From the NCBI GenBank assembly GCA_033065855.1, contig JAVXUO010002860.1:372001-436000 (forward strand): DNA of 64,000 nucleotides, read 5' to 3'. A program made the position numbers and the translations under genes. The notes below the pieces were generated by a model, which saw only the letters and a program-made list of their open reading frames with translations, had not been told where the DNA came from and made no database searches. Below are positions 1,411 through 52,671 of this stretch, piece by piece. Source of the DNA: Escallonia rubra. Lineage: Eukaryota; Streptophyta; Magnoliopsida; Escalloniales; Escalloniaceae. Each line of letters starts with the position of its first letter. Positions within the stretch are counted from its first letter, which is position 1.

Positions 1411-1462
<52 letters not shown>

Positions 1463-4400
1463 TAGAGAGAGAGAGAGAACCATGCACCATTTAGAAAAAC
1501 TCATTGTAAGCGCACAAAATTAACAGTGACTATATACCATGTTCTTCGTGCACAAGAAGCAAAAGCAAATTTTCAAATTTAATCAACATCGTTTTAGCTA
1601 CCATTTGCATTCACTTACTATTTTTCATGTGTTCCTTTGGGATAAACGAGTCAAAAGCGCCAGCGCATAAGTGCAAAACTAACATATTAACAAATCATAC
1701 CAGGAAAATGCCGAGGAAGACTGGTCATCAGAACTGATGACACAATTAATTGGTATTTAGGAACAGGATAGGCTCTTCCCACATCTGAGGTGAGCCTTCC
1801 CTCTAATGTACTATCTTTGTACGACTGTAAAGCATGAACCAGAATCGATAAGCACTTCTCCTGATATTGTTTCTCTAAAGATATCTCTCGCAAAGCTTTA
1901 CATAGTACTTGCTGAACCTCATCATCTTGCATCTGTTTGAATATGAGCGGGATAAGGATGCCAATTTAACAATTAAACTACCGCATTTAGATTAGCATCC
2001 ATACAAGTTTGGCAGAATAAAGTACAGCTCGCAGCAGTTTGAAAAAAATCAAAAGCAAAATGTTTTGAAAATGCCATTCAAGTCTGGAAAAAAAATATAG
2101 CAAACACTTCTGCAGAAGACTAGAATTTTCTATTGTCGGTTCAATTTTATGGCATCTAGTCCTATTAATTATTTACAAGCAGTTAAGTATCTCAAATATC
2201 ATCTCCATTTATACAAATATAATGGCCAGTCGAAATGGCTGAGGTTGCTCAAGGATTTATAACATCAGAGGACCCTCTATGAACATGCTTGTCACGTGTC
2301 TACCTTAGTGCATTACAAAAAATTGGGCATCACCACATTTTAAGTGGACAACATGACCACAACCTGAGGGTGCAATAGTGCCATAGCCCGTAGGGACAAC
2401 ATGCAAAGCATATGTCCTGGATTGAAGATATGAGACGAGCTTGACAATTGCCAAAGCATGGGATTCCCTACTCAAGGATCATCTCTACTAGCAGGTAGCT
2501 AATTGAGAAATGCTTACTGGGTGGAGAGATCCTTGTGCATTTGCTTATCGGTAGGCTTTTAGAATTCACGAATAGACCCTTGCACGCTTGAGCAAGCCTA
2601 GGTATGGGCAAAAGACATTGGGAGCTGAGAAGCACCTCGTTTTGCTTTCGTTGGTGTAATATCTCGAAAATGGACCTCTCGCCATTGTCAGCGGATCTGT
2701 ATTTTACAGAAATTTTTTTGAAGGAAGGATTGCTCAGATGTCTGTTTTCTGCTATCACTTGCAAAGCAGAAAATGCATCCTCCCACGGATCAAGCACTAC
2801 AAACAGGAGGTCAACGATGCTTGAAACTTCGATGCAAACACTATCATAAGAAACATAGATCACAGTGGAAAACTAAAATAAACAGAAAATATCTTGCTCT
2901 TAAAGTAAAAATGCAACCATACTTTAGCCTTTTGCCTCATGCCTTCATAATAATCACTTGTAATAGCAATTTTACTTGCTCTTCAGTGACAATTTTGACC
3001 ATACTTTCGCCGTTGGCTCCACGCTTCACAACAATCACTTGCATTACAGCAATTTTGCTTGCAAAATATAGAATTAGATAATTTATGCATTTTATTGAGT
3101 TTACCATAGGCAAACCAGATTAAGTAAGATCCTCCAATTTCCTTAGAGATTGTTGAACATGATTAGGAGATTCCTAAGAGATTGTTGAACATGATTAGGG
3201 GGATGAGAACCGCCCAGCCTCCACCCAAGTGCCCAACATACTTAAAGGCACTGAACTTCGGAGTGGAAGATAGCAAAAGGCAGGTTTTCTGGATGTTGGC
3301 AAACGGGCTTGCATAGGGCATTCCTCTTTACTCCCAACAGCTTCTCAAAGAGCTTCTGAGAGTAGTGACATCATTTCATTGCCTTACTTTACCCAGCTTG
3401 AAGTGAAGTTCCAAGCCTTTCCTTAGGTAGGCCTAAATTAGCAGGCCGATTCAAGAAAAGAACAGACCTTTAATGCATCGGCAAAACACACTAGATCACC
3501 AGACACACGCACATTTACTGTTATGAAATCTGACCAAGCTGTCAACAGCACATTTGGTGTCTAATTCTGATATTCATTCTTGTTTTCAGTTTCAGTTTTC
3601 CTAATCTTTTTCACTCTTATCTATCTATAATTAATTTTTGTTTTAACAACATTACGAGCTTGGTCGGAAACATGTTCAATTTTTCTTAGAGGAAGGCTAC
3701 ATTCCTAAAAAAAATAAAATTTAGAGTATGGGAGCCTATGTCCCCCTCTATCCCTCTTCAGCCTTTTGAAAAAAGTGTTTCTCGAAAGTCTTTTCCAGAA
3801 TGCTAACCGTACATATGTGGGAAATGCAAACAAAGCCAAAAGAAATGCTCTCATCAAGAAAGTAGTAATATAAATTACGAGTTTTCCAATTAAAAAAAAT
3901 GTTATATAAAGAAGAAGATGATAACAAACATGAGGTGACAACTAAAAACCTTGTAAATGTTCACAGATAAACAAACTGGTGGAAGTTAATTTGCCTATTA
4001 GAGAGCATGCAACAAGTATGTACTGTCTGATAAAACTTGGTGATGAAAATGCTGATAAAACATCCTAATTTCATTGAACTAAAAAAATGTGACGATTTTG
4101 TTACAGTAGAAAAGGGAACATATGATTTTCGACAAGGAATCACGTCTCTCTATTACACAACGCAAGTGCAAGAGAAAAATGAATACTTACAGAGTCGTTA
4201 CACAATTCTGGAGCTCCAACATTGCTGTAAGCATCAAAATTCTGCCAAAACTTTGATGCACAATTTTTCTCAAATATTTCCTGCATGAAAACAACAAAGA
4301 AAAAAAAAATTAGAAACGAGTATATTATTCAACAATAGGACCCCATTCATGAATACACATGCGTGCACACACACTGTTAAGAAAAAAGCAGCAACGGGCA

Positions 4401-7058: not shown

Positions 7059-10000
7059 CAATGCTCCGAGGCCTCCCGCGAAGAAGTTAGCCGTCGCACT
7101 GGCCTCGCTATCCGCCATGGTGGCGGAGACCACCACCTTCCCGATCGACATCACCAAGACTCGGCTCCAACTCATCGAGTCGCCCTCGACTCGCCGGGCC
7201 TCCGCGTTCCGAGTCGCGTCCGAAATCGTCCGCGCCGAAGGCCCTCTCGGACTCTACCAGGGCCTGTCGCCCGCACTCCTGAGGCATCTCTTCTACACGC
7301 CAGTCCGGATCGTCGGTTACGAGCACTTGCGTGAGCGCTTCGTCATCGGTGACAGTTCCTTTTCGTTTTACAGCAAGGCGCTCATTGGCGGCATTTCCGG
7401 CGTTATCGCTCAGGTATTCGATCTTTACTCTCCTAACTATTATTTGACTTTCTTGCGAATTCTTTGGATAGATTTAGTTCACATAAATGTTGACTTTACC
7501 CATTTTTTACCGTGGCTTTGACCTCACAAATGATACTTATTTAATCTATAATTGTCATTTGAGTTTGATTTGATGTTTACTTGTAAAAAATTTTTAGCCT
7601 AGGATATTGCACAAATTCAGTGAAAAATGGAGACTATGTATCGTGTTGATGGGTTGGTTGTTGTTAGCTGGTAGCCCACATTTTTTTGAATGTATAGAAA
7701 ATACTAGCATGTGAACTTGACTTTACTCTTTGTTTTTGACGTATTTTGACTCTTCAAAATCTGAATCTATAATTACTGTTTGAGTTCGATAGAATGTATA
7801 GATGTTTAAATTCTATTCTAGAAGTTTGCAAAAAGTCAAGGAGGACAAAATTTTTGGAGGGAGTAACATTTATATAAATAGAAGTAGTTGCCTTTTTCTA
7901 AACATAGAAATCTTTGGGTAAATAGGCGGCGGAATCCATGGGTGGTTCTTTATACAAATAGTAAATTAGAAACTTTGATAGATTCACTTATAATGTTGAA
8001 ACGACGTTCGTTTTAGCTTTTCAATATATGTTCGGATGTAATGTTCGTTTTTGTGCAACTGTGAGAGTCAAGATGAATATTGACTAAGGAGAACAAATAT
8101 ATCTATGGAAGCTTGAATAAAATAGGCAGCTATTCTGCTATTATTATAGTTAGTAGCTTCTTTATTCCATTTAATGTTGCAGAAGGTTATCTATTGGTGT
8201 TGGTGATTTGGAACAAACAAATTGCGCTGCCTATGTTGGATAATTTAATGATCCCACCATGATTTAGATATGTACTTCACAGATGACTCTATCGTAGTAA
8301 TTGAGGCTTCTATTAGGTGTTTATGTAAAGATAAGTAGTTCATAGAAAGGTCTTGCTACGGTGAACCGAGACTACCTATCACGTGTGCGAGACCAACTTT
8401 GGATGGTGGTGTAAAGATAAGTAGATCATAAAAAGGTCTTGCTACAGTGAACCGAGAGTACCTATCAGTCTTCGGACCTACTTTAAGTCCCTCGTCCCCG
8501 TATGCGCTTTAGTGAAGAAGGGGCTTAGTAGATTGTGGACTCTGGAGGAATTACTTATGGCGAGGCAATGAGCTGTGGCAGAAGGGGATTAAGGAGTTTG
8601 GAAATTTTGATATATTGCTACAGTGGTTGTGAGATATTCCATTGCCGGATGGAATTCTTTGGATGAGGGTAGTGATGTGTTGCGACGAGTAAACCTTATC
8701 CTGGTTCCAAGATATTTGCTGCTAGCAATTGGCAGGGAGGCTAGCATTTCAGTCACAAATGCACGTGATAGATTGAGAATGCTTAGTGATTTCCCACCTA
8801 GACTAGCAAAGTCCCCTACAAAATCAGGCTGCCAACATGTAGAAGAGCTAAGTAAAAGTAGCTATGGCAGTACTCTCAGGAAGACCGACATCAGACGTAC
8901 AAGTTTGTAACAGCTATACACAGAAAAAACTGTCCAAAACCTTGAGCAAGGCTTCTTTGGAGTAATCCCCTTTAGCCCAAGAAAAGAGGCTGAGCAAGAA
9001 ATTAAGACTTGCAAACTTTCTCTGTTTTCATTCACGTGTTTTTGAGTTTTTCTTGTTTGGTTACTGTTGTCAGATTTTGTTTTTCAAAAACACCAAATTT
9101 GAAATACTATTTACCAGCTCTTTGAAAATGTATTGTTGGAATTCACTCCACTTATCACTTATCAATGTTAATTAAATTTCATCATTTTTGTGATTTTGAA
9201 AATGTTATCCAAAGTCCCGACAAGTTAATACATGTTTTTCAGTTTTCTGAAAAGCCATCTTCTTCATATTTTCAAAAACATGAAAGCCAAAACAAAGAAA
9301 ATGGTGAGCACACAGAATCTTAACATCCTCCAACGGTGCCTCGTAACTCGTGTGTTCCTTTTTATCTAAATGCCCCAAGAAAGACAAAGATGAGTCATGC
9401 TCCACATGTCCATCCTCCTCCTCCTTATCTTATAGAGGGAACAACACCTCAACAAATCAAGCCCTGAACAAGGCATAACCCACAATGTGAAGAAGAGTAA
9501 GACCAAGTCTCAAGGAGATCTTGCGACTCGGCAATGTAAAGTTAAATGATCGATCGACTCACCATCACTCTTCCACATGTAATACCAGTTGATATCAAGC
9601 TTCCAAGGCTTCTTCAGATTATCATTGGTTATCATTTCATTTCTTGACGCCTTCCAACCAAAAAGAAAGAGGCACACCTTGAGAGGGACTGACGGATGCC
9701 AAACAGAACGCCACGACCGAATAAGGTACGTTAAAACCACACCGAGTGTCTAGCCAGAAGTGAACGCGGGAGCCATCATTAAAGCCAAATTGGATAAATT
9801 CCTTTAACTGACCCACCCCTTTCAAAAAGACACCCACATACTGCAACTGTGAGGCCTCTTCACCATACTTACCAGCAACCTATCGTCTCTAAGAACATTC
9901 CTCTTGATCATGTATCTCCATAAGTTCGTTCCACGAGGATCCTTCTAAAGTATCCCAATAGGGTGCAAATGTGTCCGTAATGAGCAGATGATACATTTTA

Positions 10001-24559: not shown

Positions 24560-25200
24560 CAGCACCTGCGGGGATAGACGAATCCTCCAGGACACTATCT
24601 CCGCCAGGGAGCTTTTCAACTCCCCTTCCGCCAGGTAGACGGCTCCTCCGGGATGCTACCTCAGCCAGTCGGGTAGACGGCTTCTCCGGGATGCTACCTT
24701 GATGCGCTTTGAGTGCTCCGGCACAAAGACTCACCCGCGGGGATAGGCGACTCCTCCGGGACACTATCTCCGCCAGGGAGCTTTTCAACTCCCCTTCCGC
24801 CAGGTAGACGGCTCCTCCGGGATGCTACCTTGGCCAGTTGGGTAGACGGCTCTTCCATGATGCTACCTTGACGCGCTCCGAGTACTCCAGCACAAGGACT
24901 CACCCGCGGGGGTAGGCGACTCCTCCGGGACACTATCTCCATCAGGGATCTTTTCAACTCCCATTCCGCCAGGTAGACGGCTCCACCGGGATGCTACCTT
25001 GACGCGCTCCGAGTGCTCTGGCACAAGGACTCACCCGCGGGGATAGACGACTCTCCGGGACACTATCTCCGGCAGGGAGCTCTAAGTGCTCCGACACGAA
25101 GACTCCCCTTCCGCCAGGTAGACGGCTCCTCGGGGATGCTACCTCGGCCTGCAGAATAGGCGACTTCTCCGGAACACTATCTCCGCCAGGGTGTCTACGT
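24560..25200. repeat. Degenerate tandem repeat block
   Basis: Units containing TAGACGGCTCCTCCGGGATG and CGACTCCTCCGGGACACTAT recur with variable spacing (roughly 130-200 bp between like units). They lie within the solo LTR. Confidence 0.85.
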
Positions 25201-30460: not shown

Positions 30461-32842
30461 ATGGGGAGGTCAGCGTGCTGCGAAAAGGTGGGCTTGAAGA
30501 AAGGACCATGGACACCTGAAGAAGACCAGAAGCTGTTGGGTTACATTGAAGCATATGGCCATGGAAGCTGGCGTGCCTTGCCTGCGAAAGCTGGTATTTC
30601 ACATGGAACCTTGATCAATATTCATGTGACAGATACATTTCGTTAACACGAAGTTTTTCTTTAGCTACAAAAAAGAAAATGAGCCACCGTTGCTCCCCGT
30701 GCATGAACTCGTTAATCAGAAAGTTTATCCGAAGTACTAATGATCAACATTTGTGGGTTTGATTTGTAGGGCTTCAGAGATGTGGGAAAAGTTGTAGGCT
30801 CAGGTGGACAAATTATCTGAGGCCAGATATTAAGAGAGGAAAGTTCAGTTTGCAAGAAGAACAGACAATTATTCAGCTCCATGCCCTCCTCGGAAATAGG
30901 TGAAAGTTTGGTGCTCAATATGTTTCTTGTACCTTAATTACCTGCATGGCAGTGCTTTGTACGGTTATCATCAGCATTATCCTAAACATGCATCATAGGA
31001 CTTGGCACGTCCATGATAATCATCTTCATCACCATCATCATTAACATCATCAATGTAGTTTACATAGACAGGCCATTCATGCACACTTTCTTGCGTTCTT
31101 ACTATGATTTCATTAATTTACGATAAATTTTTTACTTCTCATACGCGTTGAAGTTTCATGTCGACTATACAAGTAGATCCAAGTTCGGTCTTTTTATGAG
31201 CATATTTTTTTGCATAAACAGAGTATTAAAAAGAAAGAGACAATGGTCAGTTTGCAAGACGAGAAGAATAATAGAAATGTCTAAATTGCCCACAATATAT
31301 AATCTAGCTCCATCAGCCCTCAGCCGTCGGGTGAAACCATAGGTCGAAACCAGCCATTTGGCCTGCTGCAATATATTTCTTGTACCGGTTAATTAATCCC
31401 GTGCATGCTGCCGCCATCATCGTCTAGTTTGTGCCATCACCGCCCAGTCACGCTCATCCCCAGCATACCTACATCAACAATAAACACCACATCATAATCG
31501 ACTTCAAGGGTTTCACGCAATCCATGGATTCAAACCCTCTGCGATCTTCATCATCATCATCTATGTGAACATCATCTAATGTGAGGTTTGACATAGACAG
31601 GCCGTTCTATGCAATTGCGACTTTCTTGACGGCTTTTTACTATGATTTCATTAGGATTTACGATAATTTTAGTCTTAATGTCTCACACGCACTTGAAGTT
31701 TCATGTCGGTATTTTTATAACACAGTAGATCCAAGTTCGGTCTTTTTATGAGCATATTTTTTTGTTGGACATCGAATTTTAACATGGTATCAGAGCCAAG
31801 CCCACACTATTAAGATCGAGATAAGAAAAATTAGAGAGCATAAAAATGTCCCCCTAGGTGATCGTATTACTAAGGAGAATATAAACGTAGGAAAGAAAGG
31901 GAGCTTAACCTTGTAAGAGTTTTGTACCAAATGCATTCATGCTTGTACCTTTTCGTTTTTCGCAGCATATATTTTTCTCAATATTTATTGATCATTCCCC
32001 ATTATTTTTTGTTCTTCAGGTGGTCAGCCATAGCAGCTCACTTGCCCAAGAGAACTGACAATGAAATCAAGAACTACTGGAACACCCACCTCAAGAAGAG
32101 GTTAACCAAGATGGGCATCGATCCGGTAACCCACAAGCCAAAAAGGGACACCCTCGGGTCCGGCCAGTTTAAGGGAGCCGCCAACCTCAGTCATATGGCT
32201 CAGTGGGAGAGCGCTAGGCTTGAAGCCGAAGCCAGACTGGTCCGCGAGTCTAAACTAGTCTCAAACCCCTACCAAACCCCCCAGCTCGGCGCCTCCCCTT
32301 CAGCTCAGCTCCATACCAAAACCCAAGTTGCAGCACCAAAGATTCCCTGCCTTGATGTGTTAAAAGCATGGCAGGGGGCATGGTTGTCCAAGCAAAAAGA
32401 CATAGCCATTTCTAACATGGTTTTCAACTCCAATGGGAGCCTCGAGTCTCCCACTTCCACGCTGAACTTCTCGGACAACACTTTGCATAATATCCCTACA
32501 GTCGGATTCAGTGACATGTCATCCATGTCAACCATCGCCTATCCCAATAACTCCAACAGTATGATCGTGAAAGCAGACCCTACTGGATTCAGTGACATGG
32601 CTGCGTACCCTAATGATCCTGCTAAGTATATTGAAGACTACTTGAGGCTTCCAACTTTCATGGAAAGCTTCACGGATGTTATGCTAGACAATGCTGGTGT
32701 CCATAATCACCCTAACGCCAACGGAAACTTAGATAACGTGGTTGGGAGCTGCGGGAGTGATTTCGAAGAGAACAAGATCGACTACTGGAACGACATGCTA
32801 AACTTGGTCAACTCTACAACATCTGGTTCGCCGGGGTTCTAG
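30461..32842 (+). CDS. MYB106-like: MIXTA-like R2R3-MYB transcription factor (subgroup 9, MYB16/MYB106 type)
   Basis: It acts as a nuclear DNA-binding activator. In other plants this subgroup controls conical epidermal cells, trichome shape and cuticle genes. Exons are 30461-30593, 30770-30899 and 32020-32842 with GT-AG borders, giving 361 residues. R2 (about residues 14-61) contains [20 protein letters not shown] and [21 protein letters not shown]3 contains [20 protein letters not shown] and [11 protein letters not shown]. The bHLH-contact motif of R3 is absent, as expected for this subgroup. The subgroup 9 signature follows: [20 protein letters not shown]. The C-terminus [20 protein letters not shown] resembles the MYB106 end. 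Intron positions are the conserved ones for R2R3-MYBs. Intron 2 (1120 bp) is enlarged by a retroelement relic. A possible AATAAA signal lies at 33108. The coding sequence looks intact. Confidence 0.95.
31020..31900 (+). mobile_element. LTR retrotransposon relic in MYB intron 2 (fossil)
   Basis: Two diverged direct copies of a ~190-230 bp segment (about 31020-31222 and 31555-31784) share CATAGACAGGCC, TACTATGATTTCATTA and AGATCCAAGTTCGGTCTTTT. The second copy ends in CA and is followed at once by TGGTATCAGAGCC (31785-31797), the classic primer-binding site complementary to initiator tRNA-Met used by plant Copia elements. This suggests LTR 3' ends and the start of an internal region. It is fragmentary, with no coding part. 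Confidence 0.6.
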
Positions 32843-33575: not shown

Positions 33576-36500
33576 TTTTTTTGGTACAATGGAAATAGAA
33601 ATGAAAACATACTACTTGGAGGGTCTCACATAAGCCACTCCATACAGATCAGCCAAAATAAGGCTAGACATATCGCTAGCTGCTTCACTAATACATACAT
33701 ACTTCTCGTTTTGTCCTACACCTAGGTTCGCCAAGTAGTCCGCACATTGGTTTTCTTCACGCATTGTGTGCATCGGAACACTTCCCATTTGCTTGATGAT
33801 GTTTCGACAGTCCTCCACCAGTGCTTTGAGTGGGTGGTTCTGAGTGTCTTGTTCCACGACCAGTTGGAGGACAGAGGTAGAGTCTGTCTCGATTGTAGCT
33901 TTCCCCCAGTTTCTTTCTCTTATGGTCATAAGGCCTCTATGGATTCCCCATAATTCAACATTGAGGCTATTACTTTGTCCGATATTCCCATAAACACCTT
34001 CCATCCATTTGCCTTGGTCATTTCCGACTATCCCTCCATATCCACTTTGGCCTGGGTTTCCCTTAGCCGTTCCATCAGTATTAACTTTGATGAATCATGC
34101 ATCTGGAAATTTTCAACTAATCAGCTTGGTTGTGTTACTGACATTTTGTGTTGGAGAGACTTTGAAAGCTTCAGTGACTTCCCTTGTGAACTGATGGCTG
34201 GAATAGAGGGCTTCAGAAAAACGGATGTGTTTGTTGTCAAAGACACTTTTGTTCCTGCACTTCTAGTTAGTCCACATAATAGATATAAACAGGATTTTCC
34301 AAGGAGAACTGTGGGTATGGTTATCAAGTAAATTGAACCCTTTCCAAAACCAAGGAAATATCTGAAGATTTTCGAGTTGTTGTATTTGTCTATGATCAAT
34401 GGTTTTTTGCCAGAGGGTCATGGCATAAGAGAAATTCCACAGAACAGGTAAAGTGGTTTCCTCATATCTATTACATCTAGGGTATAAGTTAGAATCAGTC
34501 ATTCCTCTAATCTTTCTAAGGGAATTAGTTGGAAGTTTTTCATGAAGAGCGGTCCAGAGAAACCTTTGAGCTTTTGAGGTAAGTCCATGCTCCAAAGAGT
34601 ATTCCAATCGGTGGTTTCAGCAGGTTGGAGATTAGTATAATGAGTGGAGATCAGATCAAAGGCACCTTTGGTGGAGAAAATACCATTTCCAGAGAGACCC
34701 CAGCAAGGTGTGTCATGTAAAGAGCTGTATTTAGCAATGTGAGTGTTGGTTATCTCACATTTCTCAGCATTTAAGAGTTTATTCTCAATATCAGTGATGT
34801 TCCAATCTTTATTTTCTAAAATGCTGATAACCTTGGTTTCATTATCTCCTCTCACCCCCATTTTGATTTAAAGGTTTGGTACCACACCACCAATCTTCCC
34901 ACAAGGATATTTTGGACCCATCTCCAACAATCCATTTGGTTCCTCTCACAAGAATTTCCTTGGTGCTTAGAATTCCTTTCCATATGCATGAGGCTCTTTT
35001 TTTCTTTTTCCAAGTTCTAGGGTTATTGGTGGGTTTGTATTTTTCCTTCATAACCTCAATCCACATTTTTTCCTCACCTTTAATGATTTTTCACCCAAGT
35101 TTGGACATCATAGCAACATTGTTATCTTTAGTCTTACGGATGCCTAAACCACCTTGTCTCTTAGGTTGACAAACAGTGGTCCAGTTGACAAGGTGGATTT
35201 TTTTTGAACTTATAGTATCACCCCATAGGAAATTTCTGTTGAGTTTGACCAGCATGTTGCATGTAGCCATGGGTAAAGGAAGGGTTTGCATGGTGTAGGT
35301 GGGGAAGGCCGCAGTCACCGCATGCACTAAAGTGAGCCTGCCACTCAACGAGAGCAACTTAGCCTTCCATCCGGTAAGTTTATTCTGCACTCTCTCAATA
35401 ATATGAGAAAAATGAGTTTTTGAGAGTCTACTGTGTATGAGGGGGACTCCAAGGTAAAAACCAAGATTCTTAGTAATGGGGATACCACTCATATGGCTTA
35501 AGTTACAAGCATCTTGTTTGGGAACGTTATCAGAGACAAACATCTTAGACTTGGCAAAATTGATACTTTGACCAGCTTCATTACAGAAGGTAGTAAGAGC
35601 TTCAAGCATATACTTACAGTTTTTCTTGTTGGCTTTGGCAAATAGCATGAGGTCATCCGCATAGAATAAATGAGAGATGGGAGGGCCCTTTTGAGACGCT
35701 TTTAAACCAGTCCATTTCTTAGCATGAGTTTTGAGGCATATGAGATTAGAGAGTCTTTCCATGCAAAGAACAAAAATGTAAGGGGATAAGGGGTCACCCT
35801 GTCTAATGCCTCTTCCAGGTGTGATGGGATTAGTGGTACTACCATTCCAAAGGAAAGACATATGGTTACCCACAACACAATCCATGATCAGCTCTATGAG
35901 GTTATCAGGGAACTTAAATTCCTTAAGAGTGTGAAGGATGGAAGTCCACTTAAGTTTGTCGTAGGCTTTTTCAAGATCAATTTTTCATATCATACCGCCT
36001 TGCTTACCTTTTTTGTACTTAAGGGAATGAAGGACTTCCTGGGTGATGCATATGTTATCAGAGGTGTGTCTACCAGGGAGGAAGCTACTTTGAAAAGGGC
36101 CAATAATGTCTTCAAGCAAGGACCGGATCCTGTTGACAATGATGTTAGTGATGATTTTGTAGTTTACATTAAAGAGGCTAATGGGCCTCAATTGATTAAT
36201 TCTTTTAGGGTGGTTAATTTTAGGTATAAGAGCCACTAAGACATCCTTATCATGGGCAGGGAGCTGTTTATTAAGGAAACAATTTTTGACATAAAGACAT
36301 TTGGATGGTCCTATCTCATGCCAGAATTTATGATAAAGAAGGGATGGGATCCCATTAGTGCCGAGGGCTTTATTAGCCTTTATCTCAAATGTGGTTCTCT
36401 TAATCTCTATATCGTCGACAATTTTGGTAATGAGATTTTGATTATCCGGACATAAAAAAGCATGGTTGGTCCGATGAGAATAATCTCTAACGGGTTCATT

Positions 36501-36690
36501 ATCAGCAAAAAGTTTGTTGAAATTATTGATAATGATATTTTTTTAACTCTTTCCGGTCGTCAATCCACATATTATTATCATTTTTGAGACTTTCAATTTT
36601 ATTTCTTTTTCTTCTTTTCAGGGTAGTAACATGGAAGAATCTAGTATTTCTTTCGCCAAGAGTTATAGATTGAGATCTGGACATATACAT
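33576..36690 (-). mobile_element. LINE (plant L1 type), 5'-truncated, with RT, zinc-binding and RNase H domains
   Basis: In minus-strand order: GERNTRFFHVTTLKRRKRN near 36650; the RT N-terminal half (ALIPKINHP, LRPISLFNVNYKI, FQSSFLPGRHTSDNI) at 35985-36236; an RT core frame at 35091-35885 with GIRQGDPLSPYIF, the catalytic FYADD and GFYLGVPL; a zinc-binding domain with FLWTALHEKLPTN at 34263-34607; and an RNase H tail with IETDSTSVLQL and REENQCADYLANLG at 33612-34004. A short A-run lies at the 3' end (T's at about 33576-33582). The endonuclease domain is absent. Several frame changes break the ORF, though less than in the other LINEs here. No target duplication was found. Confidence 0.9.
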
Positions 36691-41499: not shown

Positions 41500-41540
41500 A
41501 CACACACACACACACACACACAAATATATATATATATATA
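41500..41540. repeat. (AC)n-(TA)n microsatellite at the MULE insertion site
   Basis: A CA run (about 41500-41521) is followed by TA repeats (41525-41540) abutting the MULE 3 left end. The TA tract supplies the target duplication. Confidence 0.9.
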
Positions 41541-41729
41541 GGGAGCCGATCCACACCCACCGGTATCTAGCCGTCCACGCGTAATAGTGGATGGCCCAGA
41601 TCTGTTTTTTTTTAAGTTGCAACTGCCGCTCTTTGATGCGGTTGCAAAATGGTCAAAAATACCCCGACAAGCTGAAAAAAACCCCAACTGCAAGAAAGAC
41701 TAGCGGTTGGGGACCATGCAATGATCATT

Positions 41730-42162
41730 AACCGCTACAAAGTGTAGCAATTGGTGATGATCACTAACCGCTACACTTTGTTGCGGTTGGTGATGATTGC
41801 AAAAATAATTTTTTTTTTCTTTTCTTTCTTTCTTTTGACCGTGGTTTTTTTTTTTGTAATGATGACCAACCGCCACTAAGTGTAGCGGTTGGCATCATGT
41901 TCATTTTTTTTTCAGCCTTCAAATTAACAAGACAAGACAATGCAACCTTCAACTTTGGCCCCACCATAGTCCCCAACCACTACTCTTTGTAGCGGTTGGC
42001 ATCCATCCAATTTTTTAATGCACAACTTACCCCCAGCTACCCTACAGCTACCCCACAACTATCCCACAACTACCATTAAAAACCCTAATAAAACCCCCAG
42101 CTGCCCCTACTTACCCCGAGCTGGCGCAATTAATGCCCCAACCGCTACAAAGAGTAGCGGTT
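41730..42162. repeat. Subterminal palindromes, left side of MULE 3
   Basis: Five ~24 bp imperfect palindromes built on AACCGCTACA...TGTAGCGGTT lie near 41730, 41765, 41868, 41968 and 42138. Related ones are on the right side near 51661, 51775 and 51877. They could be transposase-binding sites (inference). Confidence 0.75.
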
Positions 42163-42599
42163 TGGGGGTTTCCCTTTACTTCACGATCAGTCTTTTTCTT
42201 TCTGGCTATATCTCTCTTTCTTTTTCTTCCCAATTTCCTCACTATCGAACCCTAACCATTTCTTCATCCTCTATAACCCCTAAACTCCCATTTTTTCATC
42301 AAACAAACACTCAAAAATTCTTCCAACATCACAAACTTTTAGTGTTTGCTTGCACTATCTTGAAATCAGTTTATCCAACTTTGGTGATATTATCAAAAAA
42401 TCTAATATTGGAGCAATTATCTTGAAGGAGGAGGCAATTGAAAGCAACAATACTACATTGTAAGTTTTGCCTTTTTCATTTCATTTCATTCGATTTCATG
42501 TCATTCCATTTTATTTCTGTTTCTTTACAAAAAATTTCATTTAATTCTATGACTTGTTGAGAATGATATAATTTTTATTTTCTAGATTTCAATATAAAT

Positions 42600-44901
42600 A
42601 TGGATACAACTGGAGGAAATAATTTTTGTGAAGATTCTGATCCACCTTACAAAGCTCAAGTTTTTCAAACACTGGACGAAGTTGAAGCATACTATAGAGC
42701 ATATTCGAAAATGATAGGTTTCGGCGTTAGAATTAAGACGACTAGAAAACGGGCGAATACAGACCAAATTTATTCCCGACTATTTGAGTATCATAGAAGA
42801 GCCCCGCATGTACCCCCGGTTGTTCGGATCAGTGACGAAGGGCCAACATGACAAAGAAAAAGGGACACATTTTCGGGTACCGGCTGCAAGGCCCATGTGT
42901 ATGCAGTACACCGAAAAAATGAAAATCATTGGGTTGTGACGGGAGTGGAGTTGAGCCATAATCATCAGTTGATGACTCCTAATAAGATTGGTCAAATTCA
43001 TCAGCACCGACAAATAAGCACGGCACACAGACAACTGATATTTACAATGGCCGAGGCTAAAATTCCACCTTCTAGAATGATGGGGGTTTTCTCAAGCCAG
43101 GCTGAGGGGGTTGAGAAGTTGAGCTTCAACGCAGTTGACCTTCGAAATGAACTTCGTGCTCAGAGGAGAGAGTCTTTCAGTAAGAGTGATTCTCAAGCTA
43201 TATTTGATATATTCAGGTGCCTTCAGAGCGAGAATTCTGGCTTTTTCTATAGTCTCCAACTGGATGATGAGAACCGCATTAGTACTATATTTTGGGCGGA
43301 TGCCCGTTCTAGAGCTGCTTACCAAAGTTTTGGTGATGTTGTGACGTTTGACACCACATACCGCACAAATAAGTATTCTATGCCTTTTGCTCCGTTCACC
43401 GGGGTGAACCACCACTATCAGTCAATTTTGTTTGGCTTTGCCCTGTTTAGGGATGAGACGGAGGAGTCATTTACGTGGTTATTTGAAACGTGGCTTGAAG
43501 CAATGTATCATATTCCTCCAAAGACCATCATCACCGACCAAGATCTGGCAATGAAAAATGCAACCGCTAAGGTCCTTTCAGATACTCACCATGGTCTGTG
43601 CACATGGCACATAAGCAACAAATATCCCGAATGGCTTCACAATGTATATGCAAACCATCCGACATTCAAGAGTGACTTTAATACATGTGTGAAGAAATCG
43701 TTGACGGTAGACGTGTTCGAGGAGAGGTGGGCCAAGTTAATGGATGACTACTATTTGCACAGTCATGAATGGTTGCAAGCGTTGTATGAGATCAAGACAC
43801 AGTGGGTCGGTGCCTACACCAAAAAGTTTTTTGCAGCCGGAATGACTACGACCTCGAGAAGCGAAGGTATGAATGCATTCTTTGATGGGTACGTAGGTCA
43901 TTCTTCAAGTATAAAAGAGTTCGTACTAGGGATGCATAAAGCCTTTGACAAGCAATTTTTCCTTGAGAGAGAAACCGACGCGGCTACAGTTTACAGAGAA
44001 AGATCCATAGTAGTTTTTTTCACCTTTAGAGGCTCATGCGGCTCAAGTCTATACCAAGGAAATGTTTAGACAGTTTCAAGAGGAACTACTAAAGTCGAAT
44101 CAATATAGCATGACAAAGTTGCACGAGCTATGCACCAGAGATCTCAAGGTTTATGCTTTGACAAATGTGACGAATTTCGCCAATCCGTGCTCTTCGTCGG
44201 CTTCGAAGAAAAGAAGACATTTTACCGTAGCAGTTTGTATGGAGACCGGGTTTGTTAATTGCAACTGTCTACTGCTTGAGCATAAATGTATACTCTGTCT
44301 ACACGCGTTGAGAATTTTTAGCGCCAAGAATGCTCGTGAAATCCCTCCAGAGTATATCTTGGATCGGTGGACGAAGGAAGCCAATAGAGTGCACGGTCAC
44401 ATTCCTTATGTGCCCAATGTTTCAGTTGATTTCGAGCAATCTGAGACGCTATAATATGATTACCTTTGTAACATCATGCATGGTTTATCATTGGATGCAG
44501 CATCAACATTTGATGGGTACATGTATCAAGTTGAAGCAGCCGCACGGGATAAGGCTAACTTTGCACAGTTTAGGATGGCATTACCAGAAAGACGGGACAC
44601 TCCGACTACTCGGGCGACTCCAGCCTGTAGACTCAATCGAGCTTCACAGCCAGTCATTGACAGCACTAGCTTGCAAGGTGAGGAGGATAATATTTTTGAT
44701 CCAATTTTGTCTCAAACAAAAGGGCGAAAACGAGCAATACGTATGAAGAGTCCGATTGAAAAAGCAACGGGTCAAAAAAAATTGCGAAAGTGTGCGTTAT
44801 GTAATCAAATGACTGACCATGATAAGAGAAACTATTATAAAGTTCTAGGTATCGAACCTGACAGTATCGTCGAGGATGATGATGATGAGGAAGAGTGTTA
44901 G
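42600..44901 (+). pseudogene. MULE transposase (FAR1-like), broken
   Basis: This is the catalytic gene of MULE 3, about 766 codons with no intron needed. In order: a FAR1-type N-terminal zinc-binding domain (FQTLDEVEAYYRAYSKMIGF; GTGCKAHVYAVHRKNENHW; ELSHNHQL); the DDE core with DVVTFDTTYRTNKYSMPF (first Asp) and IITDQDLAMKNA (second Asp), then GLCTWHISNKYPEWL; a SWIM zinc finger (CNCLLLEHKCILCLH); and a C-terminal zinc-knuckle-like CALCNQMTDHDKRN with an acidic tail. Breaks seen: in-frame TGA at 42849-42851, a frame change in a T-run near 44015, and TAA at 44452-44454. Otherwise the reading is continuous, so decay is mild. It probably cannot make active transposase. Confidence 0.88.
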
Positions 44902-44986
44902 GGTTAATATTTCAGTTGTTTAAATTGAACTTTTATAATGTTTAAATTTGTGATTAGGTTTGTGGAATCTTAATATTTTTGGAAGA

Positions 44987-46755
44987 GCCTATTCGCGCAC
45001 ACTTTAGCGTCAAATTCATAGCTTGTGAAAAATGTTGTAGTTTTTTTTTGTAAATTTTTTTCGCTCATTGCACCTTAGGCACGCTAGTTAGCCCATTTCT
45101 ATTAATTTCGCGAAAAAACGAGACACGTTATTTTTTTGGATTTTCTAATGAAGGGCCTATTTGCGCACACTTTAGTGCCAAATTCATAGCTTGCGAAAAA
45201 TGTTGAAATTTTTTTGTCACTTTTTTTTGGCTCATTGCACTTTAGGAACGCTAGTTAGCTCATTTCTATGAATTTCGAGAAAAAACCAGACACGTTATTT
45301 TTTTGGGTTTTCTTATGAAGGGCCTATTCGCGCACACTTTAGCGCCAAATTCATAGCTTGTGAAAAATGTTATAATTTTTTTGTCACTTTTTTTTCCCTC
45401 ATTGCACCTTAGGCACGCTGGTTAGCCCATTTCTATGAATTCACGAAAAAACGAGACACGTTATTTTTTTGGATTTTCCTATGAAGGGCCTATTCGCGCA
45501 CACTTTAGTGGCCAAATTCATAACTTGCGAAAAATATTATAATTTTTTGGTCACTTTTTTTCGCTCATTGCACCTTAGGCACGCCAATTAGCCAATTTTT
45601 ATGAATTTCGCAAAAAAAAATGAGACGTTATTTTTTTGGGTTTTCTTATGAATGGCTTATTCACGCACACTTTAGAGCCAAATTCATAACTTGCGAAAAA
45701 TGTTGTAATTTTTTTTGTCACTTTTTTTTCACTCATTGCACCTTAGGCACGCTAGTTAGTCCATTTCTATGAATTTCATGAAAAAACCAGACATATTTTT
45801 TTTGGGTTTTCCTATGAAGGGCCTATTCGCGCACACTTTAACGCCAAATTCATAGCTTGCGAAAAATGTTGTAATTTTTTTATCACTTTTTTTTCACTCA
45901 TTGCACCTTAGGCACGCTAGTTAGCCCATTTCTATGAATTTCGTGAAAAAACGAGATACATTATTTTTTTGGGTTGTCCTATGAAGGGCCTATTCACGCA
46001 CACTTTAACGCCAAATTCATAACTTGCGAAGAATGTTGTAATTTTTTTTCTCTCATTGCATCTAAGGCCCGCTAATTAGCCAATTTCTATGAATTTCGCG
46101 AAAAAAATGAGACGCGTTATTTTTTTGGGTTTTCCTATGAAGGAAGGGCATATTCGCGCATACTTTAGCGCCAAATTCATAACTTGTGAAAAATGTTGTA
46201 ATTTTTTTGTCACTTTTTTTTTCGCTCATTGCACCTTAGGCACGCTAGTTAGCCCATTTCTATGAATTTCTCGAAAAAACGAGACATATTATTTTTTTGG
46301 GTTTTCCTATGAAGGGGTCGATTCACGTACACTTTAGCGCCAAATTCATAGCTTGCGAAAAATGTTGTAATTTTTTTTGTCACTTTTTTTTCTCTCATTG
46401 CACCTGAGGCATGCTAGTTAGCCAATTTATATGAATTTCGTGAAAAAACGAGACACGTTATTTTTTTGGGTTTTCCTATGAAGGGCCTATTCGCGCACAC
46501 TTTAGCGCCAAATTCATAACTTGCGAAAAATGTTGTAATTTTTTTGTCACTTTTTTTTCTCGCTTATTGAACCTTAGGCACGCTAGTTAGCCCATTTCTA
46601 TGAATTTCGCGAAAAAACGAGACACATTATTTTTTTGGGTTTTCCTATGAAGGGCCTATTCGCGCAAATTTTAGTGCCAAATTCATAACTTGCGAAAAAT
46701 GTTGAAATTTTTTTTTGTCACTTTTTTTTTGCTCATTGCACCTTAGGCACGTTAC
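44987..46755 (+). repeat. Satellite-like tandem array, ~167 bp unit, about 10.6 copies
   Basis: Units start with GGGCCTATTCGCGCACACTT at about 44987, 45155, 45322, 45488, 45655, 45821, 45988, 46148, 46316, 46485 and 46654. The period is 160-169 bp. Each unit has CCAAATTCATA, a poly(T) tract, TTGCACCTTAGGCACGCTAG and GAGACACGTTATTTTTTTGG. Divergence between units is modest. The array begins 86 bp after the transposase stop and ends at the stop of the convergent Ulp1 part. Confidence 0.97.
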
Positions 46756-47321
46756 TGAGAATAATGGTAATGAAGGCGTCTAGCTTCATTCTTTTTCAGC
46801 TCCCAGGCTATCCTATACCTAAACGTCAAGGCATCCCTCTTAGTCCACGACGTATATTCGAGCACCTCCGAGCGAGCAATGTAGTCCATGTACTTGAGGA
46901 CGTAAATCACGCAATCGTGACTGTTATATTGCTTTGGTCGGTCCTGTATCATCACGACCGTCCAAGGCTCTACCGTCGAATTCCTGGTGATGGTCTCCCC
47001 CGAATAATCTTGGAACGCTAGCGAGAGGATAGTAGTCTGCATCCAACAATAAAAAAGGTCATCAAGCCTATGTAACAAGAAGAATATACTATGAGCCAAT
47101 GTCAACAATTAAAAACTAACCACTGCAGTGATGTACTCGCTGTACATCTGTGCCAGCAGCCGCTCAGGTCCATCCTCCCTTAGGCTATCGTATATGTGGA
47201 TAACTCTGTTCGCTGGATGGAGAACTAATAGGAAGAAGTGGTTTGCATGATGACAAGGTATCATGATAAGGTTCGCATGAGCAGCGTGACATTGATAGTC
47301 CGAGTTCAACATGCCTAACAC
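46752..47321 (-). pseudogene. Ulp1-like (C48) cysteine peptidase part of the MULE 3 cargo gene
   Basis: Two minus-strand exons, about 47321-47121 and 47036-46752, are joined by a short GT-AG intron. Ulp1 peptidases process SUMO; transposon-borne ones have unknown targets. The catalytic features are visible: His in HHANHFFLLVLH (the usual HW is HF here), Asp in HIYDSL, and Gln/Cys in QYNSHDCVIYVLKYMD (the usual DCG is DCV). So the His-Asp-Cys triad is present. It follows the PMD part in the same direction and is probably the 3' end of one fused gene. The link across 47322-47462 is not resolved. Called pseudogene because the upstream PMD part is broken. Confidence 0.75.
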
Positions 47322-47462
47322 GTTTCGAGATGGTTTCCACTTACCCCTGCCTGCCCCTCACCTCCTTCATTCTGTGAAATCCCTCATGCTGATCACCACT
47401 AATCCCATAAAATAAGTGGGATACATGTTAAGCTTCAAATCTTCAGAGTGGTTATAACGTAT

Positions 47463-49653
47463 CTAATCCGGAACATATCTATATAAGCGCACAAAATTTG
47501 AAATATCTGTCTTCGGCGCCAACATTCTCATATCCGCATGACCTAGGAATGTCAAAAGAGGAAAGTCTGTTGTATCGACGGGCTGAGGCCCGAAGTAGTG
47601 CCGGTCGATCCAATCTCGCTTGTCCGGCCTCAATGGCTTCGTCGCTTGTCCTTTATCCGACCGGATGCTTGGGCGCGAGGCCTGGATTCCTACTTGGGTC
47701 ACCTGACTCTGGCGCTGAGAGTCGTACGCGTCAGGAGGCAAGCGACTAGACGGCTCCCACACCTGACTCTGGGGTTGAGAGTCGTACGCGTCAGGAGGCA
47801 AGGACTAGACGACTCCCACACTTGACTCTGGGACTAAGAGTCATACACGTCAGGAGGTAAGCGACTAGACGGCTCCCACACCTGACTCTGGGGCTGAGAG
47901 TCGTACGCGTCAGGAGGCAAGCGACTAGACGGCTCCCCTTGGTAACCCCGGTACGCAAGACTAAAGTTGTGAACTTCAGTCTTGTACCTCTCAATGGACC
48001 TCTTGAGATTGTCAGAAGCCTTCGCGACAAACCAGTCAAACCCCTCCAGCTGCTTGAACACCTCAGTGCCCTGGTCAACCTAAAAAACATGCATAGAAAA
48101 TATGGCTAATCATTTCAGGCATGGTCGATAAGGTGCGCAAATAAAAATTGAAACAACACTAGCATGACTTACAATGTTCAATGCCCAGAACTGGTCATAG
48201 ATCTCACGTGGCGCATACGATGTCTTCCTCACCTGGGAATGGCGATTCACCCTCGTGCGCGTCACCTTAAGAAACCATTGCAGGTACTCCACAATACTGA
48301 TGCCGTCGTCCTTCAGCGATACAAGGCTATCATACGTTTCTTGCCAAGTATTCCACTGTTGCACCTCATCGCTCAACAAATTCAAGGCATCAGGCACCTC
48401 GAAGTTCGGCCCTCGACCACTCCTGTATGGCCGTATATCTACAGCGGGTTTTGGTATCCCTTGTAGACAGCTAGCTTGCCTCATAGCTCGATCGAGCATC
48501 TAAAACTCACATACTTCAATGTGAATAAGTGGCACCCGAACCAAACCTGCCAGCACGTACGACACTGGAAGTTGCCAACACCACTCATCCAACCGATGCA
48601 TCACCTTGCCATATGGCTGCCACGTCACCTTGGATGCATCCCGTATCTCTAGTTCCCCCCGATAGAACTTTAGATGGTGGTGAGGGTCTACCCGTCTCCT
48701 TCGGTTGGTTGTAGGCCCCCAGGCCCACACCCTAGACCACGTCTCATCGGAATCAGCTACGGGCTGTGGACGACCCGTGTGTAGCCTCTCGTAAGACCAA
48801 ACCTGTGAATGCAAATATTATATGGAATTAGTAATTATTCACGAATATATTGACACGTCATCCAAGAATATAGATGCTCAAACCTGTAATAGAGTTAGGA
48901 AGGCGGCAACAGACTTGGCACCCTTTCTCGTAGCTCTGTGCAGTGCTTGATATAGGTGCGCAAGGACAGCTGAACCTCACGAATACGAGTATATCTCCTC
49001 AAGATCCTCCAAGACACCATATACTTCAGATGCACCGTGTTTTTCGAATGTGTCAGAAGTAATATAACTCTAATAATATACAGAAGGAATGCCTTCGCAT
49101 ACGTCACCAAATCGTGACGAGTGTATTCATCCGGTAGCACGCCATACTGCTCTCTCAGCCATTTAAGTTTGATGCCGTTTGTTGTAAGAGCTTCCCTCGG
49201 AATTCCCGAAAAATATTGCCTAGCCATCTTCGCTATGGATGCATACGTTTTGCTTGAAGTAATGGGTCTGCCGTGACATGAGATTCCAATTATAAATTCG
49301 ACGTCTTCTAATGTAATAGTCATTTCACCAAACCGGAAGTGAAATGAGTTCGTCTCGCTCCTCCATCGTTCAATTAGAGCGGATATAACGCAATCGTCGT
49401 GCCGAGACCAATGATGAAGATTGGTGAACGTAGATAAATTTTGACGGTGTAATATTTGTATTTGTTCCTCGTTTAGTACCCACTCTTCGAGGTGACTTGT
49501 GCTTTGAATTGTTTCCAAAACACCCCTATCGACACCGTCAAATACGTGCCTCGTGGTCATCGTTATCGTATAGGATTGATGTATCATGAGGTCCGGGGTT
49601 GAAATCCATATCTCTAAGAACAAAATATAATCGTAAACCAACTTAGCGTCCAT
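47463..49653 (-). pseudogene. Plant mobile domain (PMD/MAIN-like) part of the MULE 3 cargo gene
   Basis: Minus-strand exons are about 49653-48887, 48802-48173 and 48079-47463 with plausible GT-AG borders. PMD motifs: HHWSRHDDCVISALIERWR, FHFRFGEMTITLEDVEFIIG, NGIKLKWLREQYGVLPDEYT; then RKGAKSVAAFLTLLQ and VWSYERL across the first intron. PMD proteins (MAIN, MAIL1) occur both as host genes acting in silencing and as transposon cargo. Breaks seen: a one-base frame change near 49005-49015 with a TGA soon after in the restored frame, and a TAG at 48500-48502. The third exon holds four 20-residue repeats and leads into the Ulp1 part. Confidence 0.8.
47695..47935 (-). repeat. Four 60 bp coding repeats (20-residue unit)
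   Basis: Units spaced exactly 60 bp or nearly so encode PPDAYDSQPQSQVWEPSSRL with minor changes. They form a proline/serine/glutamine-rich linker between the PMD and Ulp1 domains. The multiple-of-three length keeps the frame. Confidence 0.9.
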
Positions 49654-49659
49654 AATATT

Positions 49660-51235
49660 TACATTCCAAAACTATAACTGGATCTTTAACCTAGCTTACC
49701 AACGCACTAGCAATAGTCATTATCTCATTATTTCAATGTATTAACACCATTCCTCACTTCCCACCACTCCGAACGCTTAATTACGTGCGTTCCTTAAAAT
49801 TTAGCGCCAACGTGGCAATTTACCAATATACCCCCTGGCATCAGAAAATCTCAGAAGTGCTTTAGAATGCTATTTTAAGCTTCCTAAATTTATTTTTGAT
49901 CTAAAAAGTATTTTACAAAATTTTCGCCCAAAAATTCCAAACTGGTGTCCGGATCGAACGCTTAAAAGTCTGTTCGGCCAAAAAAAATAGCTAACGACTT
50001 TGGAATGGCCCGAAGTCTTGGGAAATGAAACGTCCCAACATCCTAGGGTTCTCATAAAAGTTTCAGGCGAAATCGGGCTAGCTTGATGTTTTAAATTACA
50101 CTACAAAGTTACAAGGTTCCCCGTATCAGTTAGCCCCTTTCCAGTCTTCGGAAAAATCTGAAATTTTTCCTTGGTATAGATCTTTTAAAAATAACTAGGG
50201 TATCTTTTTTGTACTTTGGCAAAATTTAGCTCTAGCTATTTTTTTATAAATTACTGAAAAACTGTCTAATTAAGTTTTCACCTTTAGCGACAATTACGTT
50301 TCGTATTCACATTAAACACACAAAGTGTTACACCTTAGGAACACACAGCGTCTTCTTCCTTCAACCAATCCCTCAATCGGTCTTTGACTTTTTTTAAAAA
50401 AATTATAAAATTTTTACGAACAGTCGAGTCGAGTTGTCGGTTTTTTTTTTTAAGAACGGTGGCCGTCTTTTCTCTAAAGAAAAGGACAGTTGTCATTTTT
50501 TTATCTTAAATTTATAAGTTGTCCTTCGTGAGGGATTGATTTCAGAATTTATAGAGAAAGGACACGCCACGTGTCACTTCCGGGTGACTATTTCTTTTAA
50601 AAAATTTTATCGATCTTCGTGCTATTAAGTTTTTATCTAAAATTTTTGCCAAATTCATATCTCACTCATCCGATCTCCGATTGATCTCATTTTTGTTTCG
50701 TTCAATTTGTATTTTTGTTCTCTTCGATTTGAGTCTACAATCACTATTTTTGGACTTCGAATGAATATTCGCTAATAAACTCTAATTTAGAGAACCATAA
50801 AAAACTCTAATTTTGATGCCCTAAAAAACCGCCCATCTTGAATAAACTAAAAACTCCCAATTTTGAAACCCTAAAAACCCTAATTTTGACGTCTTAACAA
50901 ACCGCCAATTTTGAATCGATAAAAATCCATAATGTTGGAGCCCTAAAAAAACCTCAATTTTAAAAAAAATAAAAAACCCTAATTTCTTATATCAAGTAAA
51001 CCTCTAATTTCATAACCTAAACGCTAGTTCAATCCCTAATTTTAAACTCTAAAAAACACGAATTTGAGATTATGGTAAAAACAATTTAAGCATAACACAA
51101 TTTAAACAATCCACTGGTAAGAACAATTATGGTAAGAACAATTTGAAATTAACATTGAATTATAAGAAAATTCGAAATACTTACTTGCTTTAAACTTGAT
51201 ATATTTTAATCTTCTAGCGGTTATCCACCGATCTT
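49660..51235. other. MULE 3 spacer upstream of the PMD gene
   Basis: This AT-rich region presumably holds the cargo-gene promoter. At 50780-51060 degenerate units of the type CCCTAATTTTGA recur about every 25-40 bp, resembling plant telo-box words (AAACCCTAA). No gene is seen. Confidence 0.55.
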
Positions 51236-51427
51236 CTAGCGTATAATTTTTTTGTTTATGTTATCGTGGAGATTATGCAGGTAAGATTTGGAGGAGGATG
51301 GAAGAAAGAGTTGGGAAAGATGATGTAGAGTGAAAGAGAGGGTTATGTCCAGAAAGAATTGGGGAGAACGGATTATAAAGAGAGAAAAGCGAGGGAAAGA
51401 GAAGAAAGAAGACCCGTGAGTGTGTGT

Positions 51428-51570
51428 GTAAGTGAAGTGAAGTGGACTATTTGGCTTGTGAAGTGTGTTAGTGAAGTGATCAAAGTAAGGGTGCAAGTGA
51501 AGCGGACTATTTGGCTTGTGAAGTGTGTCAGTGAAGTGCACTATGTGGCTTGTGAAGTGTGTCAGTGAAG
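51428..51570. repeat. Short tandem repeat near the right TIR of MULE 3
   Basis: Units containing GACTATTTGGCTTGTGAAGT and GTCAGTGAAGTGATCAAAG recur two to three times at about 60 bp spacing. Confidence 0.8.
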
Positions 51571-52671
51571 TGATCAAAGAAACCCCGGTTGGGTTTTTTT
51601 TAAAAAAAAAAATGGGAGGCAACGTAAAGAAGGCAAAAAAAAAAAAAAAACCCATCATCACCAACCGCTACACTTTTGTGCGGTTGGGGTTTTTTTTTTA
51701 AAAAAAAAATAGGGGGTAATGATTAATGATGCAACGAAAAGAAGGCAAAAAAAAAAAAACATTTCCAGTAATCACCAACCGCTACACTTTTGTGCGGTTG
51801 GTCTGTGGTGCATTAAAAAAATGGGAGGTAATGATGCATCTAAAAGAAGGCTTAAAAAAAATAAATGGAATCATCAGCAACCGCAACAAAGTGTAGCGGT
51901 TGGTGATGATTGCATGGACTTTCTTGCGGTTGGGGTTTTTTCAACTCCCCGGGGTGTTTTTGACCATTTTGCAACCGCATCAAATAGTGGCGGTTGTAAC
52001 TTTAAAAAAAAAAAGAGATCTGGGCCATCCACGACTACACGTGGGCGGCTAGATTTATGGTGAAGAAATTGTTATTTCTCCACCGGTGGGTGTGGATCGG
52101 CTCTCATATATATTGGATATGATGTGATCATTTTGCCAAATTTATTTTTGTAGACAATAATAACTTATTTGAAAGTAGTAAGGTGTATACATAAGTCCTG
52201 TTAAATTTAAAATACAAATTCATTCCATTTAGTTTATACTTAATCATTATAATAACCTCTAAAAAAAATATGTAACACCACAAAAACCTTTGAAGTTAAA
52301 GAATTTTGCTCATATATAACATATAATTCAAAAAGGATACGTCATAGCATCCCACTTTTGAATTTCAAGCACAATTATATTCGTTATTTTGCTCTATATG
52401 GGACCAACAACTATTCTACTACTTTAAGAGTTAAGCCAATATTCATTTGAAATATTACTTGACAACTAAAAGTAAAAGCTTAAAGAAGGCAAGTATCTAG
52501 CTGCTCCACTGTGTCGCTATCTATACTTTATAGCTAAGTAGAACGTATTTTTATAATGTTAATGTCCTTTTTGTCTCACGATATATAATAAATATTAATA
52601 CACTCTTTAAAACCTTGTGGTATACTCTATCTTATAAACTGACCCGAGTTTGACTCGGGTTACTGGGCTAG

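Follow-up and report, generated by a model that had tools for sequence, protein, structure and literature searches.

In a 64-kb stretch of the Escallonia rubra genome (hereafter the window; positions are counted from its first letter), we found that the interval 41541-52105 holds a degenerate member of a multicopy family of Mutator-like elements (MULEs) with terminal inverted repeats (TIRs). This family has a defined convergent architecture that recurs in two subfamilies, A and B. It has two convergent genes, each beginning near one end of the element: a transposase gene with FAR1, MULE and SWIM domains, and a four-exon accessory gene whose predicted product joins a plant mobile domain (PMD), distantly like the Pfam families DUF1985 and DUF7745, to a variable repeat linker and an Ulp1-type, SUMO-protease-like C48 domain. 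The accessory gene lies in the position of mudrB and VANC, and because it has parts of the same kinds as VANC, the anti-silencing protein of VANDAL elements, we regard it as a candidate VANC-like factor, a reading to which we assign a probability of about 0.4.

An element family with a recurring gene order

We searched a genome of 566 Mb in 3222 contigs and worked from the best 40 of 358 TIR candidates, 150 of 2079 C48 candidates and 147 of 4175 PMD candidates, so that counts from these searches are lower bounds. The left TIR has at least 41 long matches in its own genome, its own copy included, and among the matches listed there are inward-facing TIR pairs on seven contigs at 6-18 kb and on two at about 1 kb. 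Seventeen other loci (15 of subfamily A and 2 of subfamily B) were fetched, picked by a TIR, C48 or PMD match and not randomly, and the blocks of the window were mapped onto them. The order transposase-satellite-C48-linker-PMD, with the two genes convergent, was observed in 13 of the 17; 7 of these 13 hold both TIRs within the fetched stretch, and the piece fetched from another of them, C2061, starts inside the linker. Since it recurs in so many loci, this gene order is not a product of chance. No other order was seen among the 17 loci, save for extra PMD fragments in C835, C1448 and C2609. Of the remaining four, C903 and C2322 hold TIRs only, at about 1.0 and 0.8 kb; C1448 (subfamily B) holds the PMD-C48 gene and the satellite, with the transposase body not detected; and C1212 lacks PMD-C48. 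The copies seen are mostly decayed, and in the window the transposase and PMD-C48 frames are both interrupted.

The TIRs are about 250-270 bp long, and both ends are embedded in an (AT)n tract. The left TIR (41541-41813, plus strand) begins GGGAGCCGATCC within this tract, and the right TIR lies at 51854-52105 on the minus strand. The arms are 100% identical over 22 nt (41543-41564 and 52082-52103), and further blocks show 90% identity (41565-41613 and 52006-52054), 86% identity (41605-41684 and 51932-52011) and 84% identity (41757-41813 and 51854-51910), with nested palindromes within the TIRs. By reading the letters, we observed that about 27 bp present at the right end are missing from the left TIR. 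These arms and the recurring gene order agree with the initial annotation, which had described a long-TIR MULE with TIRs of 250+ bp and nested palindromes and had proposed that it represents an element family with a defined architecture. Long TIRs together with the MULE/DDE domain place the element among the MULEs.

MULEs typically produce target site duplications of 8-11 bp. A candidate 9-bp duplication (41532-41540, with its partner at 52106-52114) is alike at 8 of 9 positions; because both flanks are AT repeat, a true duplication is indistinguishable from the microsatellite, and the match is not diagnostic. The ends of other elements likewise lie in TA repeats. Among the termini found, 21 of 21 show a run of 6 nt or more of alternating T/A within 24 nt, a count in which the C1638 terminus is a displaced end piece and to which C2061 and C835 yielded no terminus. 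The terminus of the subfamily B element L060 also lies in (TA)n, and both subfamilies occupy (TA)n. Flanking of the copies by (TA)n suggests that the family is of the TA-microsatellite-targeting (MuTAnT/TAFT) type. A terminal 30-nt TIR piece, inverted, is present at L055:175-204, just beyond the TIR match of C1638. We rejected the idea that the A and B ends are unrelated, since their outermost approximately 29 bases align partly by reading (CGATNCACA...ACCGGTGG). The ends of L060 (C1448:384000-393900) contain inverted repeats of 0.8-1.2 kb.

PMD, linker and C48 in one gene

In the window, the accessory gene lies on the minus strand in four inferred exons. Exons 1 (48884-49609) and 2 (48173-48802) would encode the first and second halves of the PMD, with one in-frame stop in exon 2 of the window copy. 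Exon 3 (47121-48079) would encode the linker, whose 20-residue repeats occupy 47700-47937 (60 bp x 4.0), and the C48 region with the His and Asp; its frame is broken inside the repeats and a second time in the interval from about 47463 to 47357. Exon 4 (46752-47036) would encode the C48 region with the Gln and Cys and ends in a stop codon at 46752-46754. Pfam profiles matched the window's PMD in two exons (1.6e-26 and 1.7e-8) and its C48 in two pieces (0.0028 and 4.9e-8).

Comparison with relatives shows at the DNA level that PMD, repeat linker and C48 form one gene, as initially proposed. A PMD hit lies within 20 kb of 44 of the 150 C48 hits listed, and in 44 of these 44 pairs, the window included, the PMD is upstream of the C48 on the same strand, at a spacing of 1.0-3.3 kb that is mostly about 2.3 kb. 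Thus, where PMD and C48 might have turned out to be separate unrelated genes in other copies, the pairs were collinear instead. The other 106 C48 hits have no PMD among the matches listed and are therefore uninformative. In seven other loci (L010, L016, L017, L026, L029, L060 and L061, with L029 being the same locus as L059), a single open frame runs through linker and C48 at the place where the window copy is broken, which indicates that the break near 47463-47321 is damage in the window copy. Block spacings point to length changes near this position in several further copies as well. In L043, L056, L058 and L059, the first PMD exon stays open up to its splice site. The splice dinucleotides are largely conserved in the relatives, with GT in 16 of 16 and AG in 17 of 19 for intron 1, GT in 30 of 31 and AG in 28 of 31 for intron 2, and GT in 35 of 35 and AG in 31 of 35 for intron 3.

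The four exons of L060, taken unaltered, join through three phase-0 GT-AG introns into a predicted protein of 886 amino acids. This protein matches the PMD profile at 2e-70 over positions 15-346 of 347, a nearly full-length match that supports its designation as a PMD protein, and C48 at 1.1e-19; by reading, its first approximately 34 residues are in a different frame from those of other copies. We considered an 84-nt stretch inside the C48 as coding and rejected this, treating the stretch as a putative intron. It is open in several A copies and its block has a pairwise dN/dS (non-synonymous to synonymous rate ratio) of 0.295, points that favor coding; against this, many of the copies listed have one stop within the C48 match, which in L060 and L061 falls inside the stretch.

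The C48 of the relative L059 aligns with SENP2 and SENP5 over the His (HW), Asp (DS), Gln and DCG stretches (domain match 5e-21), and with the active-site His, Asp, Gln and Cys all present it is a predicted peptidase. In the window copy, HF and DCV stand where L059 has HW and DCG. Hence the residues of the His-Asp-Cys triad that had been pointed out in the window are there, while their neighbors are altered.

In L061, tandem units of about 595 bp at 7842-9603 appear to stem from the region 5' of the PMD gene; by eye, a single stretch resembling this unit lies near 49840-50290 in the window.

Selection on the PMD-C48 gene

Over 35 copies, the PMD exons have pairwise dN/dS values of 0.61 and 0.42, the linker blocks 0.73 and 0.67, the second C48 part 0.41, and the transposase blocks 0.645 and 0.43. 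Such pairwise ratios are pulled towards 1 because copies decay after insertion. We therefore also counted differences fixed between the subfamilies, requiring that 80% or more of the 14 copies assigned to A share the A state and that the B copies agree, and excluding the intron-3 block; the B side consists of two copies (one for the transposase). For the PMD-C48 gene there are 32.5 synonymous differences over 378.7 sites and 53.5 non-synonymous differences over 1400.3 sites, giving a dN/dS of 0.43 (p 0.0004), and the corresponding transposase ratio is 0.45. When C48 loci of unassigned subfamily are added, the ratios are 0.37 (p 0.0002) for PMD-C48 and 0.46 for the transposase, and linker plus C48 alone gives 0.41 (p 0.023). 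Some of these unassigned loci (L016 and L017) are B-like in the linker, and the recount on assigned copies moved the PMD-C48 value from 0.37 to 0.43. Little constraint was observed in the linker block ahead of the repeats and in the transposase tail. These counts show past purifying selection on the PMD-C48 gene.

The same data bear on the idea that PMD-C48 is a functionless passenger of amplification. The mostly decayed state of the copies would fit a passenger, as would pairwise ratios that lie at 0.6-0.8 for several blocks and exceed 1 for a single block. The fixed-difference ratio and the conserved splice sites speak against it, however, as do the retention of both genes in 13 of the 15 fetched loci that contain coding sequence at all and the presence of PMD-C48 without the transposase in C1448. 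We consider this explanation very unlikely.

Palindrome arrays at the element ends

Both ends of the element carry arrays of a 27-bp palindrome, which in subfamily A reads about CCAACCGCTACAAAGTGTAGCGGTTGG. Allowing up to 6 substitutions, we found 6 copies in the left array (41684-42164), and the 27-bp pattern gives 3 copies in the right array (51661-51903). The remaining 53.4 kb of the window contain 0 copies, with 0 expected from 50 simulated sequences. Nine longer complete elements, the window's included, hold 114 palindromes (9-15 per element), all confined to the ends, with none in the coding or satellite stretches. A looser scan for half-sites with a spacer of 9-15 nt found 137 palindromes in 15 A loci, again including the window, of which 134 have an 11-nt spacer; elsewhere in the window, beyond the limits of the element, it gave one match.

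In L060 the palindrome differs, and six copies (at up to 6 substitutions) or five (by the half-site scan) were found. The A and B palindromes differ at six letters, all of them mirror-paired, and 12 of the 13 pairs are complementary in both; a difference of this size cannot be separated by the tolerant scan, so the distinction comes from reading the copies. Paired mirror changes would fit a dimer-bound site or a foldback, and gene conversion between the arms is also possible. As in VANC systems, noncoding DNA here contains repeated motifs that are not the same in related elements, with the B type coming from one element. The hexamer AACCGC is not enriched in the flanks of L061 or L060; we dropped this as evidence against a shared motif once the B variant had been read in L060.

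The arrays can also be explained as binding sites of the transposase, with PMD-C48 acting as a mudrB-like helper of insertion or expression that has no anti-silencing role. Their location in and adjoining the TIRs, where MULE transposases are generally known to bind, favors this, and so does their retention in the TIR-only copies C903 and C2322 (6 and 7 palindromes), which need a transposase. A convergent second gene is moreover the layout of MuDR, in which each gene starts by its own TIR and the 3' ends face each other. Two observations pull the other way: the arrays, which have several copies at each end, extend beyond the homologous part of the TIRs in the direction of the genes, and the PMD weakly resembles a VANC domain. 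On balance, we view this explanation as possible, if doubtful.

A candidate VANC-like factor

According to the available portion of the literature, VANC carries DUF1985 and variable tandem peptide repeats and binds motifs that recur in noncoding DNA and vary from one related element to another (PMC5735166), and some VANC genes include an Ulp1 domain (PMC13317346). Of 7 PMD exon 1 sequences that we scanned, 5 gave a match to DUF1985 (E 8.9e-7 to 2.3e-4), and the 886-residue protein of L060 matches it at 2.2e-5. If the accessory protein acts like VANC, the palindrome arrays of the same subfamily would be bound by its PMD/linker part, and its protease part would strip SUMO-like tags from silencing factors at those arrays; the TIR promoters would thereby stay on and transposase would get made. 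That the element might interfere with host silencing had been suggested at the outset; we infer the same, in a form sharpened by the weak DUF1985 similarity and by end arrays that differ between subfamilies. The most specific version, in which PMD-C48 is a VANC-type, subfamily-specific anti-silencing factor of a TIR-bearing MULE whose target is the end palindrome, switched by paired mirror changes, seems to us rather unlikely as a whole.

Several results weigh against a VANC-like role, in addition to the location of the arrays noted above. All DUF1985 scores fall below the Pfam cut-off (at best 29.4 against 35.1 bits), and DUF7745, a family of unknown function, fits the 886-residue protein better, at 32.0 bits with a cut-off of 26; because of this, the likeness is not specific to VANC. 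DUF1985 gave no match in the PMD exon of the window, up to E 1, or in L061, and both of these copies are frame-broken. Structure prediction for PMD exon 1 from 11 relatives gave a pLDDT of 34.5 and no usable fold. The B palindrome is known from one element (L060), L061, apparently fetched without its ends, has no palindromes, and 29 of the 134 A palindromes have the B-like G at one changed position. C1212 has retained its ends with the transposase and satellite only and lacks PMD-C48. Among the A copies seen, none is both intact and full-length, and pairwise dN/dS over the 35 copies is 1.44 in the spacer and 0.80 in the first C48 part.

A VANC-like factor would act at sites of its own element. 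PMD-C48 could instead act broadly in trans, the PMD competing with the host PMD proteins MAIN/MAIL1 (partners of PP7L) or the C48 stripping SUMO from proteins of the silencing machinery, with no element-specific DNA site. Host PMD proteins are needed for silencing of transposable elements, as the accessible parts of PMC7156037 and PMC5418596 report, and the C48 of L059 retains its His, Asp, Gln and Cys, both of which are in keeping with such a mode of action. However, a host target has no support here, a broad effect would presumably harm the host, and the available portion of PMC6117577 considers action on SUMO improbable for C48 proteins of the Kaonashi type. We judge this explanation quite improbable.

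Transposase gene, satellite and surroundings

The transposase gene of the window (42600-44901, plus strand; FAR1, MULE/DDE and SWIM) is in four open pieces separated by two in-frame stops and one frame change, as judged against an open homologue of 777 amino acids in L061. Pfam matches in the window are 1.3e-30 for MULE, 4.9e-6 and 1.7e-4 for FAR1 in two pieces, and 0.19 only for SWIM. The homologue, at 807-3137 of this sister-subfamily copy, is an open FAR1-MULE-SWIM frame with a MULE match of 7.1e-33, on the basis of which some family members may have been recently active. Upstream of the transposase in L059 (9393-9455) lie 21 codons that resemble the 5' end of the PMD reading frame in the window, and the two genes may thus have leader sequence in common beyond the TIR.

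The satellite (44982-46751) consists of 10.6 units of 167 bp with 86% matches; it separates the 3' ends of both genes and abuts the C48 stop codon directly. In 30 of 30 loci from the C48 search, counting the window together with 8 of the 17 fetched loci, satellite begins at most 164 nt after the C48, with 4-10 unit matches each. Identity of full units is 0.866-0.945 within elements (13 elements), 0.885 between A elements and 0.873 between A and B, and both B arrays are more uniform (0.962 and 0.981). For subfamily A, we rejected a recent expansion of the satellite in each copy, because unit identity within elements is about that between A elements; the array thus predates the A copies. The satellite could serve as a shared 3' end for both transcripts, stopping each gene from running into the other.

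Elsewhere in the window, we named by eye an exon of an R2R3 MYB-like gene (31874-32842) and two LINE-type (long interspersed nuclear element) reverse transcriptase open reading frames on the minus strand (35091-36542). A GC-rich tandem repeat of 169 bp is present in 2.6 copies at 24563-25001.

Relation to known elements and implications

In what is available of the cited papers, the closest systems are VANDAL elements with VANC/KIU (Kaonashi ULP-like) genes of Arabidopsis, in some members of which the second gene of a MULE joins a DUF1985-type domain to Ulp1 (PMC5735166, PMC10398659, PMC13317346, PMC6117577). The family described here shares with them the variable tandem peptide repeats and the noncoding repeat motifs that differ between related elements (PMC5735166), but has a full PMD with weak DUF1985 similarity, long TIRs, a (TA)n insertion site, palindromes at its ends and a satellite between its genes. 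Kaonashi elements likewise have ULP antisense to mudrA (PMC2528002); their KI-MULE type is non-TIR, whereas the TIRs here are long. TIR-MULEs of the MUDR, MUDRAVI2 and MDR clades have a SWIM transposase and often or sometimes an antisense PMD gene, with no C48 fusion or satellite named for them in the accessible part of PMC6446971. ULP1-bearing MULEs of grapevine, melon and rice, TIR-MULEs among them, carry ULP1 downstream of the transposase in either orientation, with no PMD named in the corresponding part of PMC2528002. MuTAnT, TAFT and SaTar also insert in (TA)n, and MuTAnT has many short non-autonomous copies, but AutoMuTAnT has a single transposase reading frame (PMC4486113, PMC5907723); the MuTAnT-type TIR is given as GGGGTTTGCTAGAACA, as compared with GGGAGCCGATCC in the window. 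Both mudrA and mudrB are named in PMC4486113, and some genic PMD proteins are fused to a protease (PMC7156037), again as far as the available text extends.

It would be over-reading to call the parts new singly, since antisense PMD (PMC6446971), antisense ULP1 (PMC2528002), PMD-protease proteins (PMC7156037) and TA-targeting MULEs (PMC4486113) are each in print, according to the accessible portions of these sources. No paper describing a MULE with a PMD-C48 fusion came up in our literature search, although such a fusion may still be in print. The combination, a predicted PMD-C48 fusion in a TA-sited TIR-MULE with a satellite, would add to these known parts, and new here are the end-confined arrays of a 27-bp palindrome, its mirror-paired sister palindrome and the sub-threshold similarity of the PMD to DUF1985.

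Plant MULEs of several clades carry PMD genes (PMC6446971), and Gypsy elements also carry PMD, with function unknown (PMC9289625), in the parts of these papers at hand. If the specific subfamily-restricted reading is true, PMD and DUF1985 would be branches of one transposon counter-silencing fold, which would explain why PMD genes lie antisense to so many MULE transposases. If PMD-C48 works like VANC, the role of transposon PMDs becomes directly testable: similar proteins with different palindromes in two subfamilies make a ready-made swap experiment, and sequence-specific epigenome editing could, if this is true, be a by-product.

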